From positions 1 to 35,177 of the forward strand of contig NZ_JAFAUS010000278.1 of assembly GCF_019243155.1 (NCBI RefSeq): DNA of 35,177 nucleotides. Reading direction: 5' to 3'. Of this stretch, positions 15,752 through 26,513 are shown piece by piece. Position numbers and translations under genes: made by a program. The DNA is from Mycobacterium sp. (lineage in GTDB: Bacteria > Actinomycetota > Actinomycetes > Mycobacteriales > Mycobacteriaceae). The stretch's first letter is position 1, and each line of letters starts with the position of its first letter. The notes under the pieces were generated by a model, which ran no database searches, had not been told where the DNA came from, and was given only the letters and a program-made list of their open reading frames with translations.

Positions 15752-16948
15752 ATGGCTTATGACGTCGCCCGGGTGCGTGGACTGCATCCGTCCCTGGGTG
15801 ACGGTTGGGTGCACTTCGATGCGCCGTCCGGGATGTTGATCCCCGATTCCGTCGCGACCACGGTGTCGACCGCGTTCCGCAGGTCCGGCCCCAGCACGGT
15901 CGGTGCGCACCCGTCGGCGCAGCGCAGCGCGGCCGTCCTGGAGGCGGCGCGCGCGGCGGTGGCCGATCTGGTGAACGCCGATCCCGCCGGTGTCGTGCTG
16001 GGCTCGGACCGCGCGATCCTGTTGTCGTCGCTTGCCGAGGCGTCGTCGTCGCGGGCCGGCCTGGGCTACGAGGTCGTCGTCAGCCGCCTCGACGATGAGG
16101 CGAACATCGCGCCGTGGCTGCGCGCGGCCCATCGCTACGGCGCCAAGGTGAAGTGGGCCGAGATCGACATCGAGACCGGCGAGCTGCCGACGTGGCAGTG
16201 GGAGGGCCTGATCGGCAAGTCGACCAGACTGGTGGCGGTGGCCTCCGCGTCGGCGACGCTGGGCACGGTCACCGACCTGCGCGCGATGACCAAGCTGGTG
16301 CACGACGTCGGGGGGTTGGTGGTCGTCGACCATTCCGCCGCGGCGCCTTACCGGTTGCTCGACGTCAAGGAGACCGACGCCGACGTCGTCGCCGTCAACG
16401 CCGCGGCGTGGGGCGGCCCCCCGATCGGTGCGATCGTGTTTCGCGATCCGGTGCTGCTCAACTCGTTCAGCTCGATCTCGACGGACCCCAAGGCCACCGG
16501 GCCGGCCCGGCTGGAGACCGGCGCGCACCAGTTCGGCCTGTTGGCCGGAGTGGTCGCCAGCATCGAGTACCTGGCCGCGCTCGACGAGTCCGCTCGCGGC
16601 AGTCGGCGCGAACGCCTGTCGGTGTCAATGCAATCCGCCAGTTCGTATCTGAACCGGATCTACGACTACCTGATGGTGTCGCTGCGGTCGTTGCCGTTGG
16701 TGATGGTGATCGGCCGTCCCGAGGTGCGAATTCCGGTCGTCAGCTTTGCTTTACACGGTGTTCCCGCCGAACGGGTGGTGCAACGGTTGGCCGACAACGG
16801 CATCCTGGCCATCACCAGTGAGAGCTCGCGCGCTCTGGACGTGTTGGGCGTCAACGACATTGGTGGCGCGGTCACCGTGGGGCTGGCGCACTACTCGACG
16901 ACGGCCGAGGTCGACCAGTTGGTGCGAGCGCTCGCGTCGCTGGGCTAA
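15752..16948 (+). CDS. PLP-dependent class V aminotransferase / cysteine desulfurase-like protein (Rv3778c-like)
   Basis: [42 protein letters not shown]...; AAGGTGG ribosome-binding site before ATG. Confidence 0.93.
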
Positions 16949-17919
16949 GCCTTTAGCGTCAGCACGATCTTTCCGTGCACCTCGCCGTCCGCCAGCTTCT
17001 GGTGGGCGGCCCCCGCCCGCTGGATCGGAATCCGCTCGCCGATGATCGGCCGCACCCGTCCGTCGGCGATCATCGGCCAGACCGCGTCGGTCACCGCCGC
17101 CACGATCTCGCTCTTGCTGTGTGGGCCGCTGGTCGGCCGTCCCCGCAGCGTCGTGCCGATGACGTGCGCCCGCTTGGCCAGCAGCTTGCCGATGTTGAGC
17201 TCGCCCTTCAGCCCGCCCTGCATGCCGATGATGACCAGCTGGCCATCGCTGGCAAGCGCGTCGATATTGCGGTCCAGATAGGAGGCGCCCATGATGTCGA
17301 AGATCACGTCCGCCCCGCCGGATTCCTGCAGCCGCGCCACGAAGTCCTCGTCGCGGTAGTTGATGGTGATCTCGGCCCCCAGGTCGCGACAGGTCTGCAG
17401 CTTCTCCTCCGAGCCCGCCGTGACCGCCACCCGGGCGCCCAGCACCCGGGCCACCTGAATGGCGTGGGTCCCGATGCCGCTGGCCCCGCCGTGCATCAAC
17501 AGCAACTGGCCTTGGCCCAGGTGGGCCGTCAGCACCAGGTTGGACCACACCGTGCACGCCACCTCTGGCAGCCCGGCGGCGTCGACCAGGTCGACTCCCG
17601 ACGGGATCGGCATCACCTGGCCGACGGGGACGACGACGTGCTCGGCGTACCCGCCGCCGGCGAGCAGTGCGCAAACGTGTTGTCCGACAGTCCATTCGGT
17701 GACGCCGGAGCCGACCTCGGCGACGACGCCCGACACCTCCATGCCGATGATCTCGCTCGCACCCGGCGGCGGCGGATACTTGCCGGCGGCCTGCAACAGG
17801 TCGGCCCGGTTCACACCGGCCGCGACGACCTTGATCAGCACCTCGCCGGGCCCGGCGGACACATCCGGCACTTCTTGCCAGGAAAGTTGATCGGAAGATT
17901 CGGCGACGATTGCGCGCAT
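16945..17919 (-). CDS. Zinc-type / NADPH:quinone oxidoreductase (Rv3777-like)
   Basis: [53 protein letters not shown]... MDR family. Confidence 0.93.
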
Positions 17920-17975
17920 GCGGGTCACGCTACTAGGAAGCCGGGCGGGCCACCGACCCCGTTACCCTTATCAGC

Positions 17976-18062
17976 GGTGGCGTGGCAGAGCGGCCTAATG
18001 CACTCGCCTTGAAAGCGAGAGACGGCTAAAACCGTCCGGGGGTTCAAATCCCTCCGCCACCG
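17976..18062 (+). tRNA. tRNA-Ser (anticodon TGA)
   Basis: Acceptor GGTGGCG/CGCCACC, anticodon stem-loop CTCGC-CTTGAAA-GCGAG, long variable arm, T arm GGGGGTTCAAATCCCTC. Confidence 0.95.
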
Positions 18063-18068
18063 CTCTCA

Positions 18069-19187
18069 TCAGCCGACGGGCTCGTGCAACGTGGGCGCAT
18101 AGCGCAGCACCGCGCCCACCCCGTCGACCGGGGCGATGCGCTCGTCGGTGCGAACCAGCGCGGCCCCGATAGAGGTCGCGAACATCGGGAGCGCCTCGTC
18201 GGCCCGCAGCGTCTTGGCCGGCGCGGCACCCTGCTCGGATAGCACGTTTTCGTTCTCGGCGATGGTCGTCCGCTCCTCGTCGGAGACGACGGTGGCGTCC
18301 TCGATGTCGCCGATGATCAGCGTCTCGACCGCGCCCTGCCGCAGCGCCGAGCACACCGCGCCCAGCCCTTCGGCCGCCAGGCCCGACTGCCGCCCGATCT
18401 CGGCGGTGAACCGCCGGGCGACCTCATCGATCGTCCGTAGCTGGCGCTTGAGGAATTCGGCTTCGATGGCCTCCTCGACCTCGTTGAAGTCGTGACCGCT
18501 GTGCCGCGCTCCCACTTCAAGGGCAGCGATGCGCTCGTGCAATCGTTCGGGCAGCTCCGCGATCAGATCGGAACGCGATCGGACCTCGCCCACCACGAAG
18601 ATCACGTCGAACTCATGGTGGTCGACGAGTTCGCTGACGCGGTCGGCGACCGCGCGCAGATTCTTGCGCGCGGCTTCGTCGGTGCGCATCTGGGCGTCAC
18701 CGTATCCCGCGTTTTCGGCTCCCGCGGCTTTGTGTACCGGGTGCCCGCCGCCGTCGACGGCTTCCGAGCGCAGCCTGCCCCCGACATGGGTGGTGATGTC
18801 GGCGCCGGTGTGGTCGACGATCACCAGGACGTAATCCGGATGATCGAAGCTCTGCGCCAGAATCGGGACGATATAAGGCAATTCGGACACTCGGACGACG
18901 GTCGCGGGGGTCGGCAACGCCAGATGCTCGTTGATCGCCACGCCGTCGGCACTGGCGATTACCGCTCGACCGCTGCGGCCGACCGGAGGGCGCAGGTCGT
19001 TGACGGCGGTTGCGATCTTGCCGATGACCGCTTCGTCTGCGTGCCGGCGTTCGAGTTCCTCGCGGACCGCGCGCAATTTGAGGTCTAGCTGGGCGGCGGC
19101 GTCGTGGGTGTCGTGCGAATCGTCGAAGTACACCGAGGCGAACGGCCCCGGGACGTCGAGCAGTTTGCGGAAGCGTTCAGATTCCAT
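18069..19187 (-). CDS. Archaeal/eukaryotic release factor 1-like (baeRF/Balon-like) protein, Rv2629 paralog
   Basis: LLDVPGPFASVYFDDSHDTHDAAAQ...YIVPILAQ...VDHTGADI...FVVGEVRSRSDLIAELPERL...ADEALPMFATSIGAALVRTDERIAPVDGVGAVLRYA; parallels the remembered Rv2629 sequence over the full length. ATG at 19187 preferred over 19265. Confidence 0.9.
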   Translation of the reverse strand: MESERFRKLLDVPGPFASVYFDDSHDTHDAAAQLDLKLRAVREELERRHADEAVIGKIATAVNDLRPPVGRSGRAVIASADGVAINEHLALPTPATVVRVSELPYIVPILAQSFDHPDYVLVIVDHTGADITTHVGGRLRSEAVDGGGHPVHKAAGAENAGYGDAQMRTDEAARKNLRAVADRVSELVDHHEFDVIFVVGEVRSRSDLIAELPERLHERIAALEVGARHSGHDFNEVEEAIEAEFLKRQLRTIDEVARRFTAEIGRQSGLAAEGLGAVCSALRQGAVETLIIGDIEDATVVSDEERTTIAENENVLSEQGAAPAKTLRADEALPMFATSIGAALVRTDERIAPVDGVGAVLRYAPTLHEPVG

Positions 19188-19222
19188 GCCTAGTGGGTGC
19201 CCGACCCGCTGGGACGCAAACC

Positions 19223-19414
19223 CTAATAGCTTCGGTCGCCCTCGCTGTCGTCGAAGAAATGCCATTCGCCGTCACGCTCGACTTCCATGCGCCAGCCGAG
19301 TTCGTTGTCATCGACCTTGTTGTCCACGAACCACGCGTGCGCCTTATCGGCGCTTTCGATGTCCTCGGTGGCGACGACGTCGCCCTTCGGGTTGAGCACT
19401 CGGTAGGTAGCCAT
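19223..19414 (-). CDS. Hypothetical 63-aa acidic protein
   Basis: MATYRVLNPKGDVVATEDIESADKAHAWFVDNKVDDNELGWRMEVERDGEWHFFDDSEGDRSY; 35 nt upstream of, and same strand as, the Rv2629-like gene. Confidence 0.75.
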   Translation of the reverse strand: MATYRVLNPKGDVVATEDIESADKAHAWFVDNKVDDNELGWRMEVERDGEWHFFDDSEGDRSY

Positions 19415-19442: not shown

Positions 19443-20681
19443 CTAACCGATGGGAATCTCGGCGGCAATCGTGTCCATCAGTGCCGTATAGCGGCGGACC
19501 TCCGGATCGCGGCCTGGTTTGCCACTGCTCACCAATCCGGCCGACAACCCCCGCGCGGGGTCGGCCCACATCGCGATGTTGGCCAGGCCGAGGCTGCCGA
19601 ACGCGTGCGGCGCGCCCCGGCCGAACGGCCCGAACCTCTTGGTACCCAGTATGAAACCGGTGCCCCAGCGGGCGGGGTGTAACCCGACCGCGAAATCCGG
19701 TCGCAGCCTTCGGCTTTGCTTGACCGCGCCGTACATGGTCTCCGGGCTCAAAACGCGTACGCCGTCGAGTTCGCCACCGCGGCGCCAGATCTCGGCGAAG
19801 CGCGACATCTCGTTCGCGGTCGACACGGTGTTGGACGACGGAACGATGGTGGTCAGGAAGAGCGGACTGTTCGAGTAGGGGATGATCTCGTGCACCGTTC
19901 CGCCGACCGCTTTGCGGAAGAGCTGCGCCACGACCGGCGGCAGCGGCCGGCCAGTGGCGTGGCTGGGAGCGACGAGAGGTAAATCTTGTTGCGCGACACC
20001 AAAATTCGTCCACCTGAAGCCGAGTGGATCGAGGATCTCGGTGGCAAGGATCTCGCGGATCTCCTTACCCGTTGCCGCGTAGACGATCTCGCGCACCAGC
20101 GGGCCCCAGGTCAGGGCGTGGTAGATGTGCACCAGCCCCGGGGGGTACAGCGGCCGCAATTCGCCGAGTTTCTGCTGCGCGTACTCGTGGTCGTCGGCGC
20201 GCTTGACGTCCGGCCTCGGTCCGGTGGGAAACGGAAGGCCGGCGCTGTGCGTCATCACGTGCCGGATGGTGATCCGGTCCTTGCCGTGGCTGGTGAAGGT
20301 GGGCATGTATTCGCAGACCCGGTCATCGAGGGAGAAGACGCCACGCTCGACGAGCATGTGCACCACCGTTGCGGCGACGGCTTTGGCCGCCGAGTAGACG
20401 CAGAACGGCGTGTCGGTCGTCACCGGGATCTGCTCGGCGTCGGGCGGATCGGTGGGCGCGTTGCCCCAGCCGTGGCCGATCGCCCGGTTGAGCACGACCT
20501 GACCGTTATGGCGGATGCACAGCTGGATCGCGGGTTGCAGCCCAGCTTGATACCAGTGCCGCGCCGCCCGCCAGATCCGCTCGATGGCGGCGGAGTCGAT
20601 GTCGGTGTGGTTTTCCTCGCCGATCGCCGTCACGGAGTCCAAATCGGCGGGAACGCGGATCTTGCCGTCCGGGGTAGTCAC
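19443..20681 (-). CDS. lipE: Serine beta-lactamase-fold esterase/lipase (LipE-like, Rv3775)
   Basis: YSAAKAVAATVVHMLVERGVFSLDDRVCEYMP (SxxK), ITIRHVMTHSAGLP, located next to echA21. Confidence 0.87.
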   Translation of the reverse strand: MTTPDGKIRVPADLDSVTAIGEENHTDIDSAAIERIWRAARHWYQAGLQPAIQLCIRHNGQVVLNRAIGHGWGNAPTDPPDAEQIPVTTDTPFCVYSAAKAVAATVVHMLVERGVFSLDDRVCEYMPTFTSHGKDRITIRHVMTHSAGLPFPTGPRPDVKRADDHEYAQQKLGELRPLYPPGLVHIYHALTWGPLVREIVYAATGKEIREILATEILDPLGFRWTNFGVAQQDLPLVAPSHATGRPLPPVVAQLFRKAVGGTVHEIIPYSNSPLFLTTIVPSSNTVSTANEMSRFAEIWRRGGELDGVRVLSPETMYGAVKQSRRLRPDFAVGLHPARWGTGFILGTKRFGPFGRGAPHAFGSLGLANIAMWADPARGLSAGLVSSGKPGRDPEVRRYTALMDTIAAEIPIG

Positions 20682-20700: not shown

Positions 20701-21525
20701 CTACTCGCCCTTGAACTGTGGCGGACGCTTCTCGAATGTCGCCGAGATGCCTTCGGTGAGGTCCTTGGACGGCAGGAAGGCCGCGTTCCAGGCGGCGACG
20801 TAGCGCAGGCTCTCGGAGACCGCGGCGATGCGTTGCTGGTCGAGGACGTCCTTGACGCCGTGGACGGTCAGCGGGGGGTTGGCGGCAATCTCGGCGGCGG
20901 TCGCGTGCGCGGCGGCCAGCGTGGCCTCGGGGTCGTCGTAGACGTCGTTGACCAGGCCGATCTTCTCGGCGCGCGCCGCGTCGATGTCCTTGCCCGTCAG
21001 CGCGAGCTCGCGCAGGTGGCCGTCGTTCAGGATCAGCGGCAGGCGGGCCAGGCTGCCGACGTCGGCGACGATGGCGAGCTTGACCTCACGCACGGAGAAC
21101 TTGGCCTCGGCGCTGGCGTAGCGGATGTCGACCGCGGAGATCAGGTCGACCCCGCCGCCGATGCACCAGCCGTGCACCGCAGCGATCGTGGGGGTGCGGC
21201 AGTCGGCGACCGCGGTGATCGCCCCCTGCATGCGCTTGACCTCGCGGTGGAATACCGCGCGGGGGCCGGCCAGTGCGTCGCCGGACAGCAGCGGGGTGAA
21301 TGAGCCGCCCATCGCGGGCACGTCCAGGCCGTAGCTGAAGTTCTTTCCCGACCCGGTGATCACGATGGCCCGCACCTCGGGGTCGGCGTCCAGCGTGGGA
21401 AACAGCTCGGGCAACTCGGACCAGAACGCCGGCCCCATGGCGTTGCCCTTGCCGGGACCGATCAGCGTCACCTGCGCAACCTGGTCTTTGATTTCCACAG
21501 TGACGGATTCGTATGCCTGGCCCAT
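20701..21525 (-). CDS. echA21: Enoyl-CoA hydratase/isomerase family (EchA21-like, Rv3774)
   Basis: MGQAYESVTVEIKDQVAQVTLIGPGKGNAMGPAFWSELPELF...GSGKNFSYGLD...IAAVHGWCIGGGVDLISAVDIRYAS. Confidence 0.93.
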   Translation of the reverse strand: MGQAYESVTVEIKDQVAQVTLIGPGKGNAMGPAFWSELPELFPTLDADPEVRAIVITGSGKNFSYGLDVPAMGGSFTPLLSGDALAGPRAVFHREVKRMQGAITAVADCRTPTIAAVHGWCIGGGVDLISAVDIRYASAEAKFSVREVKLAIVADVGSLARLPLILNDGHLRELALTGKDIDAARAEKIGLVNDVYDDPEATLAAAHATAAEIAANPPLTVHGVKDVLDQQRIAAVSESLRYVAAWNAAFLPSKDLTEGISATFEKRPPQFKGE

Positions 21526-21548
21526 ATGCAGACCGTAGCGTGGCGGAT

Positions 21549-22133
21549 ATGGCCCCTGACTTGCGACCCGGACCAGATTCACCACCCAACGACGAGCTGC
21601 AGAGCGCCGAGAAGACCTTCAGTGTGCTGCAGCACGTGCTGCACACCGTCGCCAGCGACGACATGTCCCGGCGGACGCCGTGCTCGGAGTATGACGTGAC
21701 CGGGTTGACGGGCCATTTGGCGCAATCGATCACCGGTCTCGCCGGCTTGGTGGGCGCGGACCTACCCGAGCCCGATCCGAGTGACTCGGTCGAGCGCCGG
21801 CTCGTCACCCTGGCCCGCCCGGCCCTGGACGCCTGGCACCGCCACGGATTGGACGGCAGCGTGCCGTTCGGCAAGGGACAGATGCCTGCCAAGGGCGCGT
21901 GCGGCATCCTGTCGATCGAATTCCTGGTGCACGCCTGGGATTACGCCAGCGCTATGGGACACGACGTCGACGCCCCGGAACCCTTGGCCGAATACGTGCT
22001 GGGGCTGGCGCACCAGATCATCAGACCGGAATTGCGTGCGCGCGCAGGATTCGACGAGCCGGTCGAGGTGCCCGCCGACGCGCGCGCCCTGGATCGGCTG
22101 ATCGCGTTCACCGGCCGAAATCCAGCCGGCTAG
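21549..22133 (+). CDS. TIGR03086 family / mycothiol-dependent DinB-like protein (Rv3773c-like)
   Basis: MAPDLRPGPDSPPNDELQSAEKTFSVLQHVLHTVASDDMSRRTPCSEYDVTGLTGHLAQSI...; GNP-like C-terminus AFTGRNPAG. Confidence 0.88.
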   Translation: MAPDLRPGPDSPPNDELQSAEKTFSVLQHVLHTVASDDMSRRTPCSEYDVTGLTGHLAQSITGLAGLVGADLPEPDPSDSVERRLVTLARPALDAWHRHGLDGSVPFGKGQMPAKGACGILSIEFLVHAWDYASAMGHDVDAPEPLAEYVLGLAHQIIRPELRARAGFDEPVEVPADARALDRLIAFTGRNPAG

Positions 22134-24245: not shown

Positions 24246-26513
24246 TCAAGTGGGGACGATGCGGCTCCACACCCGGTGCTCCTCGAGGCCGGCGACGAGC
24301 GACGAAACGATGTCCGACGCGTCCGAGCCGGCGAAGATTCCCTCGCCCTCCGACGGAACACCCGCTGCCGCAACCAGACTGGTTCCCTGTGGCAGCACGC
24401 CCAGCGGCTTGAGATGACGAAACGCCTCGTCGACGAGGGTTCGCGCACCGGCTTCGGCTGGCGATCCAGCGACGAGAACGGCGTCGACTTCAACGGATCG
24501 TCCCGTCGAGTAGGTGCGAGAAACCGGCGGGCCGCCGTTGCGGTCCAGCGTTCCGCCATGCGAAGCGAACACCAGGGGAACTAGTTTGGCCGCGGTGATC
24601 GCGGCTACCGCCGCCGTCACCTGGCCGGTGTCGGAGTCCGCGTCGGTGAGGATACCGATGCGGCGACCGGCGACCGGCCACCGTTGTCCGATCTGCGAAA
24701 GCGCCGGACTGGCCGGCGGGGCGGTAGGAGCCGAGTCCGGGACGGGCGCCTGCAGACCCAGTCGCGCGGCGACGGCGGCGCACAGTTCGGTATCGATCTT
24801 CGCAAGGACGGCGAGCTCGCGTTCCTTGATCGTTTGCTCGTAGCATTTGCCCAACTCAAAGGAGAACGCTTCGATGACATGGGCTTGTTCGACGGGCCGC
24901 AGGCTGCGGTAGAACAGGGTCGCTTGGCTGAAGTGGTCGTCGTAGCTCGCGGGATTTGCGCGCCGTTTGGTCGAGGCGGGTAGCGCAACGGGGGCCTCGA
25001 TGAAGGCGGCAAGATCGCCTCCCGCGGCGAACGGGCATCCGCCGTCGATTGAGTTCGGGCGATACGGCGCATTACCGGGATGTACGCCGTGCTGGTGAAA
25101 GCCGTCCCGCAACATGTCGTTGACCGGCGCGTGCGGGCGGTTGATCGGGATCTGGGCGAAGTTCGGACCGCCCAGCCGGGTGATCTGCGTGTCGAGGTAG
25201 GAGAACAATCGCGCGTGCAACAGTGGGTCGTCGGTGACGTCGATTCCGGGAACCAGGTGACCGGTGTGAAACGCCACCTGCTCGGTCTCGGCGAAGAAGT
25301 TGGTTGGGTTGGCGTTGAGTTGCATGGTGCCGATGACCTCAACCGGGGCCAACTCTTCGGGCACGATCTTGGTCGAGTCGAGAAGATCGATGCCCTCGAA
25401 CATCTGCTCGGGATTGTCAGGAAACACCTGGATGCCCAGATCCCATTCGGGGTAGGCGCCCGACTCTATGGCGTCGGCGAGGTCACGGCGATGGAAGTCG
25501 GGGTCGACACCGGCGGCAATCTGGGCTTCCTCCCACACCAGCGAATGCACTCCTAGGCGTGGCTTCCAGTGGAACTTCACCAGCGTCGTCGTGTTGTCCG
25601 GCGCGACCAGCCGGAACGTGTGGACGCCGAAGCCCTCCATCGTCCGGTAGGACCGCGGGATCGCCCGGTCGGACATGGCCCACATGGTGTGCGCGGATGC
25701 TTCGGTGTGCAGCGACACGAAATCCCAGAACGTGTCGTGCGCGGTCTGGGCTTGCGGGATCTCGCGATCCGGGTGGGGCTTGGCCGCATGGATGACGTCG
25801 GGAAATTTGATGCCGTCCTGGATGAAGAACACCGGGATGTTGTTGCCGACAAGATCAAACGTTCCCTCGTGGGTGTAGAACTTGGTGGCGAACCCGCGGG
25901 TGTCCCGCACGGTGTCGGCCGATCCACGGGAACCGATCACGGTGGAGAAACGGACGAACACCGCCGTCTCCGCGCCGGACTTGAGAAACCCTGCCTTGCA
26001 GATTTTCTCGGCCGCGCCGTTGCCGCGGAACACACCGTGAGCACCGGCGCCCCGGGCGTGCACCACCCGTTCCGGGATGCGCTCGTGATCGAAGTGGGTG
26101 ATCTTCTCGCGCAGATGGTGATCCTGCAGAAGCGTCGGACCGCGTTCACCGGCCTTCAGCGAATGATCGGTGTCATATAGCCGCACTCCCTGAGCGGTGG
26201 TCAGGGAGCGGTCCTGCTGCCCGCGCGCCGTCGCCGGGCCCTCTACCGGTGTTCCGGTAGCCGTGCGAAGTTCCGGGGCGATCTGATCGTTCTTGGGCGG
26301 CAACGGCTCTCGCGGCGTGGTCGGCTCGGTCAGGTCTGGTGGTTCGGCGCCCGGCGCGCTGGGAATGTAGCCGCTGGCCTGAGCCTGCTGGGCCTTCCCT
26401 TCGCGGACCAGATACTCCTGACCCGACACCGCCCCGATGGCCTGCTTGGCCACTGCCTTGACGCCCTCGACGACGCCCTTGACCGGGTTGCTGCGCCCGC
26501 CGTCCTCTGCCAT
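24246..26513 (-). CDS. katE: Large-subunit (clade II, HPII-type) monofunctional catalase with C-terminal DJ-1/PfpI-like domain and CsbD-like N-terminal extension
   Basis: HFDHERIPERVVHARGAGAHGVFR, RFSTVIGSRGSADTVRDTRGFATKFYTHEGTFDLVGNNIPVFFIQDGIKFPD, YLDTQITRLGGPNF; C-terminal RRIGILTDADSDTGQV...; AAGGAG RBS 7 nt before ATG. Confidence 0.95.
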   Translation of the reverse strand: MAEDGGRSNPVKGVVEGVKAVAKQAIGAVSGQEYLVREGKAQQAQASGYIPSAPGAEPPDLTEPTTPREPLPPKNDQIAPELRTATGTPVEGPATARGQQDRSLTTAQGVRLYDTDHSLKAGERGPTLLQDHHLREKITHFDHERIPERVVHARGAGAHGVFRGNGAAEKICKAGFLKSGAETAVFVRFSTVIGSRGSADTVRDTRGFATKFYTHEGTFDLVGNNIPVFFIQDGIKFPDVIHAAKPHPDREIPQAQTAHDTFWDFVSLHTEASAHTMWAMSDRAIPRSYRTMEGFGVHTFRLVAPDNTTTLVKFHWKPRLGVHSLVWEEAQIAAGVDPDFHRRDLADAIESGAYPEWDLGIQVFPDNPEQMFEGIDLLDSTKIVPEELAPVEVIGTMQLNANPTNFFAETEQVAFHTGHLVPGIDVTDDPLLHARLFSYLDTQITRLGGPNFAQIPINRPHAPVNDMLRDGFHQHGVHPGNAPYRPNSIDGGCPFAAGGDLAAFIEAPVALPASTKRRANPASYDDHFSQATLFYRSLRPVEQAHVIEAFSFELGKCYEQTIKERELAVLAKIDTELCAAVAARLGLQAPVPDSAPTAPPASPALSQIGQRWPVAGRRIGILTDADSDTGQVTAAVAAITAAKLVPLVFASHGGTLDRNGGPPVSRTYSTGRSVEVDAVLVAGSPAEAGARTLVDEAFRHLKPLGVLPQGTSLVAAAGVPSEGEGIFAGSDASDIVSSLVAGLEEHRVWSRIVPT

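Follow-up and report, generated by a model that had tools for sequence, protein, structure and literature searches.

The 372-aa protein encoded next to tRNA-Ser(TGA) in a Mycobacterium contig is very likely a Balon-type ribosome-hibernation factor of a vertically inherited lineage distinct from that of Rv2629, and the sole such factor found in its species. The window, i.e., the whole stretch of DNA analysed (35,177 nt), is contig 390 of a 5.44-Mb draft genome in 540 contigs with an estimated contamination of 6.39%. In what follows, lineage B denotes the clade of copies located at the lipE/tRNA-Ser site and lineage A the clade that includes Rv2629.

Organization of the locus

The order of genes on the minus strand was echA21-like, lipE-like, 63-aa ORF and 372-aa ORF, with tRNA-Ser(TGA) on the opposite strand (Table 1). 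The gap between the lipE-like gene and the 63-aa ORF, which lie on the same strand, was 28 nt in the window, that between the 63-aa and 372-aa ORFs was 35 nt (median of 36 nt over relatives), and the end of the 372-aa ORF stop codon was separated from the convergent tRNA gene by 5 nt. Beyond the tRNA, the Rv3777-like gene is followed by what we take to be an Rv3778-like gene, both names being assigned from synteny. The low dN/dS values obtained in pairwise comparisons among relatives, which were 0.09–0.20 for the 372-aa ORF where it is kept and 0.05–0.17 for the 63-aa ORF, indicate purifying selection on both and thus that both are real genes. The factor gene and the 63-aa gene occupy a common neighbourhood and are probably co-transcribed, possibly with the lipE-like gene as the first gene of the transcript; a scan for promoters and terminators revealed nothing above chance. 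Elsewhere in the window, past tRNA-Ser(GCT) and tRNA-Arg(ACG), a 755-aa ORF at positions 24246–26513 resembled a large-subunit catalase, a name given by sequence reading only.

Table 1. Features of the lipE/tRNA-Ser locus (window coordinates).
Feature	Position	Strand	Basis
Rv2629-family (Balon-type, baeRF family 2) ribosome-hibernation factor, lineage B, 372 aa	18069..19187	-	NF052289, PF18844, PDB 8v9k, AF2, tree
63-aa acidic (pI 4.3) protein of an undescribed, mainly mycobacterial family, beta-beta-alpha-beta-beta predicted	19223..19414	-	conservation, AF2, dN/dS
tRNA-Ser(TGA), convergent with factor gene	17976..18063	+	ARAGORN
lipE-like gene	19443..20681	-	ORF; order kept in most relatives; name from synteny
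echA21-like enoyl-CoA hydratase gene, conserved neighbour	20701..21585	-	ORF; conserved synteny
Rv3777-like oxidoreductase gene, conserved neighbour beyond tRNA	16945..17928	-	ORF; conserved synteny

Family and predicted fold of the 372-aa protein

The 372-aa protein falls within a family already known, the Rv2629/Balon ribosome-hibernation factors. Thus, residues 7–363 scored 512.3 bits against the NCBIfam model NF052289 (Rv2629 family ribosome hibernation factor), for which the cut-off is 320, and a Pfam match to PF18844 (baeRF_family2) scored 134.7 bits. In a phmmer comparison with PDB 8v9k, which contains ribosome-bound Rv2629, residues 1–366 aligned without gaps (E 6e-111), including the C-terminal region, whose domain in Balon-type factors contacts EF-Tu, and this entry was the only strong PDB relative detected by sequence. 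The AlphaFold (AF2) model of the protein (pLDDT 84.3) had the aeRF1-like three-domain fold of ribosome-bound Rv2629 and was closest to 8v9k (TM 0.88–0.90), followed by Msmeg1130 and then Balon. These findings agree with the earlier note, which had placed the protein in the aeRF1-fold Balon/Rv2629 family and had described a parallel with Rv2629 along its length; all six motifs quoted there were present in the ORF.

Neither NIKS nor GGQ was found in the sequence of the 372-aa protein, so that neither peptide release nor stop-codon reading is expected of it. The loop at residues 153–164, which occupies the place of GGQ in aeRF1, was predicted with low confidence. Balon-type factors are described as lacking the NIKS and GGQ motifs of aeRF1, and for Rv2629 both A-site binding and inhibition of in vitro translation have been demonstrated (PMC10901736). 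By homology to Rv2629, the 372-aa protein would enter the A site under stress by means of its three-domain fold and would reach the decoding centre and the peptidyl-transferase centre but not catalyse release; EF-Tu(GDP) may help it, and ribosomes would thereby be held idle.

Two lineages of the factor

Separation of the 372-aa protein from the Rv2629 lineage was evident from phylogenetic trees. In a tree with two MSMEG_1130-type outgroup rows, all 31 sampled copies from the lipE/tRNA-Ser site formed one clade, lineage B, with support of 99/96. With six outgroup rows, four of them wrong-frame ORFs, support was 99/92 for lineage B and 99/96 for the Rv2629 clade, and both lineages remained single groups in the tree with the two good outgroup rows only. 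The 372-aa protein did not fall within lineage A. Its identity was approximately 48–53% to lineage-A copies of slow growers as opposed to 67–80% to lineage-B copies, and the alignment contained 89 columns with conservation of 95% or more in each of the two lineages together with 17 positions fixed differently between A and B, which makes functional differences possible. Among 149 Mycobacterium genomes, intact lineage B was noted in 31, lineage A in 22 and both in 12; of the 31 genomes with intact lineage B, 19 yielded no lineage-A copy. The occurrence of separate clades, together with the presence of both lineages in 12 genomes, indicates that the relation of the 372-aa gene to Rv2629 is out-paralogous and not orthologous. 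Lineage B would then be an ancient paralogue of the Rv2629 lineage at the slow-grower lipE/tRNA-Ser(TGA) site. Multiple Balon copies in mycobacteria have been reported previously (PMC10901736).

In the source draft genome, the 372-aa gene was the sole match to the NF052289, PF18844 and NF052288 models. Two genes that flank lineage A in relatives (HPF-type and FadD-type) had only 34–36% homologues in this genome, a result that, for a draft assembly, favours real absence of lineage A over an assembly gap. Thus, the source species appears to lack lineage A, with the 372-aa gene as its sole Balon-type factor found. The earlier note had called the gene a paralog, which holds for the gene lineage, given the trees and the separate clades, but not within the source genome, where there is no second copy. 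Its description of a second aeRF1-like factor must likewise be dropped, as no other Rv2629-type, baeRF-2 or MSMEG_1130-type gene was found there. A genome search for the Rv2629 ortholog, as that note had suggested, found none and left this gene as the only one of Rv2629 type, yet the relocated ortholog that the note had associated with such an outcome was not borne out. That the gene is Rv2629 moved to another place is in fact very unlikely. Presence of a single copy in the source genome and a score above the NF052289 cut-off would be in keeping with relocation, whereas the well-supported separate clade, the 12 sampled genomes that carry both lineages at their two sites and the lower identity to slow-grower lineage A than among lineage-B copies all speak for an out-paralogue.

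Inheritance and loss at the lipE/tRNA-Ser site

The same gene order was common to dozens of slow growers, including M. colombiense, M. scrofulaceum, M. palustre, M. paraense and M. arosiense, many of which, e.g., M. colombiense and M. arosiense, have kept the lineage-B gene. Distances between factors followed those between the neighbouring lipE and Rv3777 genes (Mantel r 0.54–0.55, P 0.001), and within the window the tRNA 3' end was not repeated over 12 nt or more. tRNA genes are common integration sites, and the position of the factor gene beside tRNA-Ser(TGA) had led to the suggestion in the earlier note that it was acquired there. Given the common synteny, the agreement with neighbour distances and the unrepeated tRNA 3' end, mobile acquisition at a tRNA-Ser integration site is very unlikely and that suggestion was not sustained. 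Lineage B at this site in slow growers is vertically inherited, and the lineage is old. When mapped onto a tree of lipE from 70 loci, the state of the factor changed 14 times, i.e., loss or breakage was frequent, and lineage B is thus dispensable in many species.

Individual loci showed different forms of change. In five of them (L241, L245, L248, L250 and L257) the factor gene was cleanly missing and only approximately 20–50 nt separated the 63-aa gene from tRNA-Ser; species with such clean loss between these two genes included M. interjectum and M. terramassiliense. In a Mycobacterium MAG (L229:4838-5188), the middle of the factor gene, approximately residues 204–320, was inverted in place, with inverted repeats of only about 8 nt at either end, and this inversion may be either real or an assembly error. 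The factor at the lineage-B site of genome G110 (L162:4698-5762) was only 52% identical and lay on a very long branch while lipE was 83% identical, which may reflect either rapid evolution or the onset of decay.

The 63-aa protein and its relation to the factor

The 63-aa protein belongs to a true, undescribed and widespread small-protein family that is mainly mycobacterial. As the earlier note had surmised from a conserved-looking ORF close upstream of the factor gene on the same strand, relatives are well kept and were detected in 100 of the 149 Mycobacterium genomes. When 250 genomes from across the order were sampled, they were noted in 2 of 68 genera, and Gordonia soli also carries a copy. 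No fitting family was found in Pfam, NCBIfam, PHROG or PADLOC, a sequence search of the PDB gave no match, and comparison of the AlphaFold model (pLDDT 77) with PDB folds gave nothing below E 0.15.

Members of this family also occur in other settings. The source genome encodes another member, 71 aa in length, immediately behind htpG (Hsp90) (L104, G000:C208:3396-3611), an arrangement seen in 12 of 12 loci examined, and a literature search found no paper describing such a small neighbour of mycobacterial htpG. Two further genomes have the 63-aa gene behind one for a universal stress protein (L099, and L100 by clustering), and in several more it adjoins pyridine-nucleotide oxidoreductase and Nudix genes. 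At L099:3939-5062 the 63-aa ORF overlaps the last bases of the universal stress protein gene, which suggests translational coupling.

It is unlikely that the factor and the 63-aa protein work together as a functional module, with the small protein regulating the factor, in the manner of an antagonist or chaperone, by binding either the factor itself or the ribosome together with it. Such a module would account for the shared strand and the spacing of 32–47 nt in 41 of 45 loci in which both genes are intact, for purifying selection on both and for their continued adjacency in rearranged loci (L081, L086 and L089). However, among 70 loci, the 63-aa gene was kept in 15 where the factor was lost or broken, the factor occurred in 9 without a nearby 63-aa gene, and both were broken in 1. 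State changes on the lipE tree numbered 4 for the 63-aa gene versus 14 for the factor, and the partial correlation of factor and 63-aa distances given lipE was 0.16, below the value of 0.22 for the factor and the bystander gene Rv3777. The occurrence of 63-aa homologues beside htpG, universal stress protein or oxidoreductase genes instead also argues against a module. These findings indicate that the 63-aa protein is not an obligate partner of the factor, is probably not a dedicated one either, and is conserved independently. Thus, the dedicated two-protein module envisaged in the earlier note was not upheld, and the co-conservation on which it leaned was only partial, as both genes were intact in most loci but in others one was kept without the other nearby. 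The 63-aa protein, probably stress-related, would share the neighbourhood of the factor in many species without being needed by it. A broader reading is that this protein and its htpG-linked homologue are small stress cofactors of a new family, acting on the machinery for protein quality and ribosome storage (Hsp90, universal stress proteins and Balon-type factors), and that lineage B answers stresses other than hypoxia, so that two Balon systems with different triggers would operate in some mycobacteria; we regard this reading as unlikely. In any case, the locus exposes an unnamed and widespread family, with a member located behind htpG, that deserves attention separately.

Upstream palindromes and possible differences in function

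With a provisional DosR-like motif, 13 of 21 lineage-A genes were seen to carry a palindrome with at most 6 mismatches at -102 to -127, which nearly always scored above shuffled sequence, while the motif was found at this position in none of 30 lineage-B genes. In lineage B, palindromes occurred elsewhere: two at -228 within the 250 nt examined and two more farther upstream. In the window, no site with 5 or fewer mismatches to the motif was present in the 400 nt upstream of the factor gene, and the best in 250 nt, with 9 mismatches, did not exceed shuffled sequence. Genome-wide counts of the box were 0–2 in every genome whatever its lineage and provided no usable control. This contrast is a lead, a hint that stress control of lineage B may differ from that of lineage A. 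Expression of the factor would probably be tied to the transcript of lipE and the 63-aa gene and not to the DosR hypoxia regulon.

The different genomic setting of lineage B, the absence of a DosR-like box from the lineage-A position and the 17 fixed differences could also point to a ribosome-binding paralogue with another job, such as rescue of stalled ribosomes; a non-catalytic role in the relief of stalled ribosomes has been proposed for baeRF proteins (PMC6514570). Nevertheless, the protein has gained no catalytic GGQ and has the same fold and domain order as Rv2629, and a job other than hibernation seems improbable. In species in which only lineage B was found (19 of 31 sampled genomes), what is known of Rv2629 in relation to hypoxia may not carry over.

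Comparison with known factors

What is new here is a second, vertically inherited lineage of a known hibernation-factor family. Archaeal and eukaryotic aRF1/eRF1 and Pelota are distant fold relatives; the 372-aa protein has neither a GGQ nor a NIKS motif. Balon of Psychrobacter urativorans (PDB 8rd8/8rdv/8rdw) is an aeRF1-type hibernation factor of the same architecture (TM 0.57–0.59) but with an identity of only about 18–19%. Balon genes elsewhere most often adjoin RaiA (PMC10901736), whereas the 372-aa gene lies beside lipE and the 63-aa gene. A gene that clusters with an HPF/RaiA (S30AE)-domain gene was noted near many lineage-A loci (L103, L119, L121-L123, L125-L126 and L128-L129) and was not seen at the lineage-B site.

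Solved structures among mycobacterial members of the family are those of Rv2629 and Msmeg1130. Msmeg1130 of M. smegmatis (PDB 8v9j/8v9l) is likewise a Balon-type A-site factor with the same fold (TM 0.65–0.68), but identity was 18–19% and the 372-aa protein, with 44.8 bits against the MSMEG_1130 family model NF052288 as opposed to a cut-off of 480, is not a member of that family. The closest known factor is Rv2629 of M. tuberculosis, which belongs to the same family by curated cut-off, aligns ungapped over 366 residues, has the same fold and, like the 372-aa protein, contains neither GGQ nor NIKS. The two differ in that the 372-aa protein falls in a separate clade, is encoded at another chromosomal site, shares about half of its residues with Rv2629 and, by the provisional motif, belongs to a lineage without the DosR-like palindrome at the lineage-A position.
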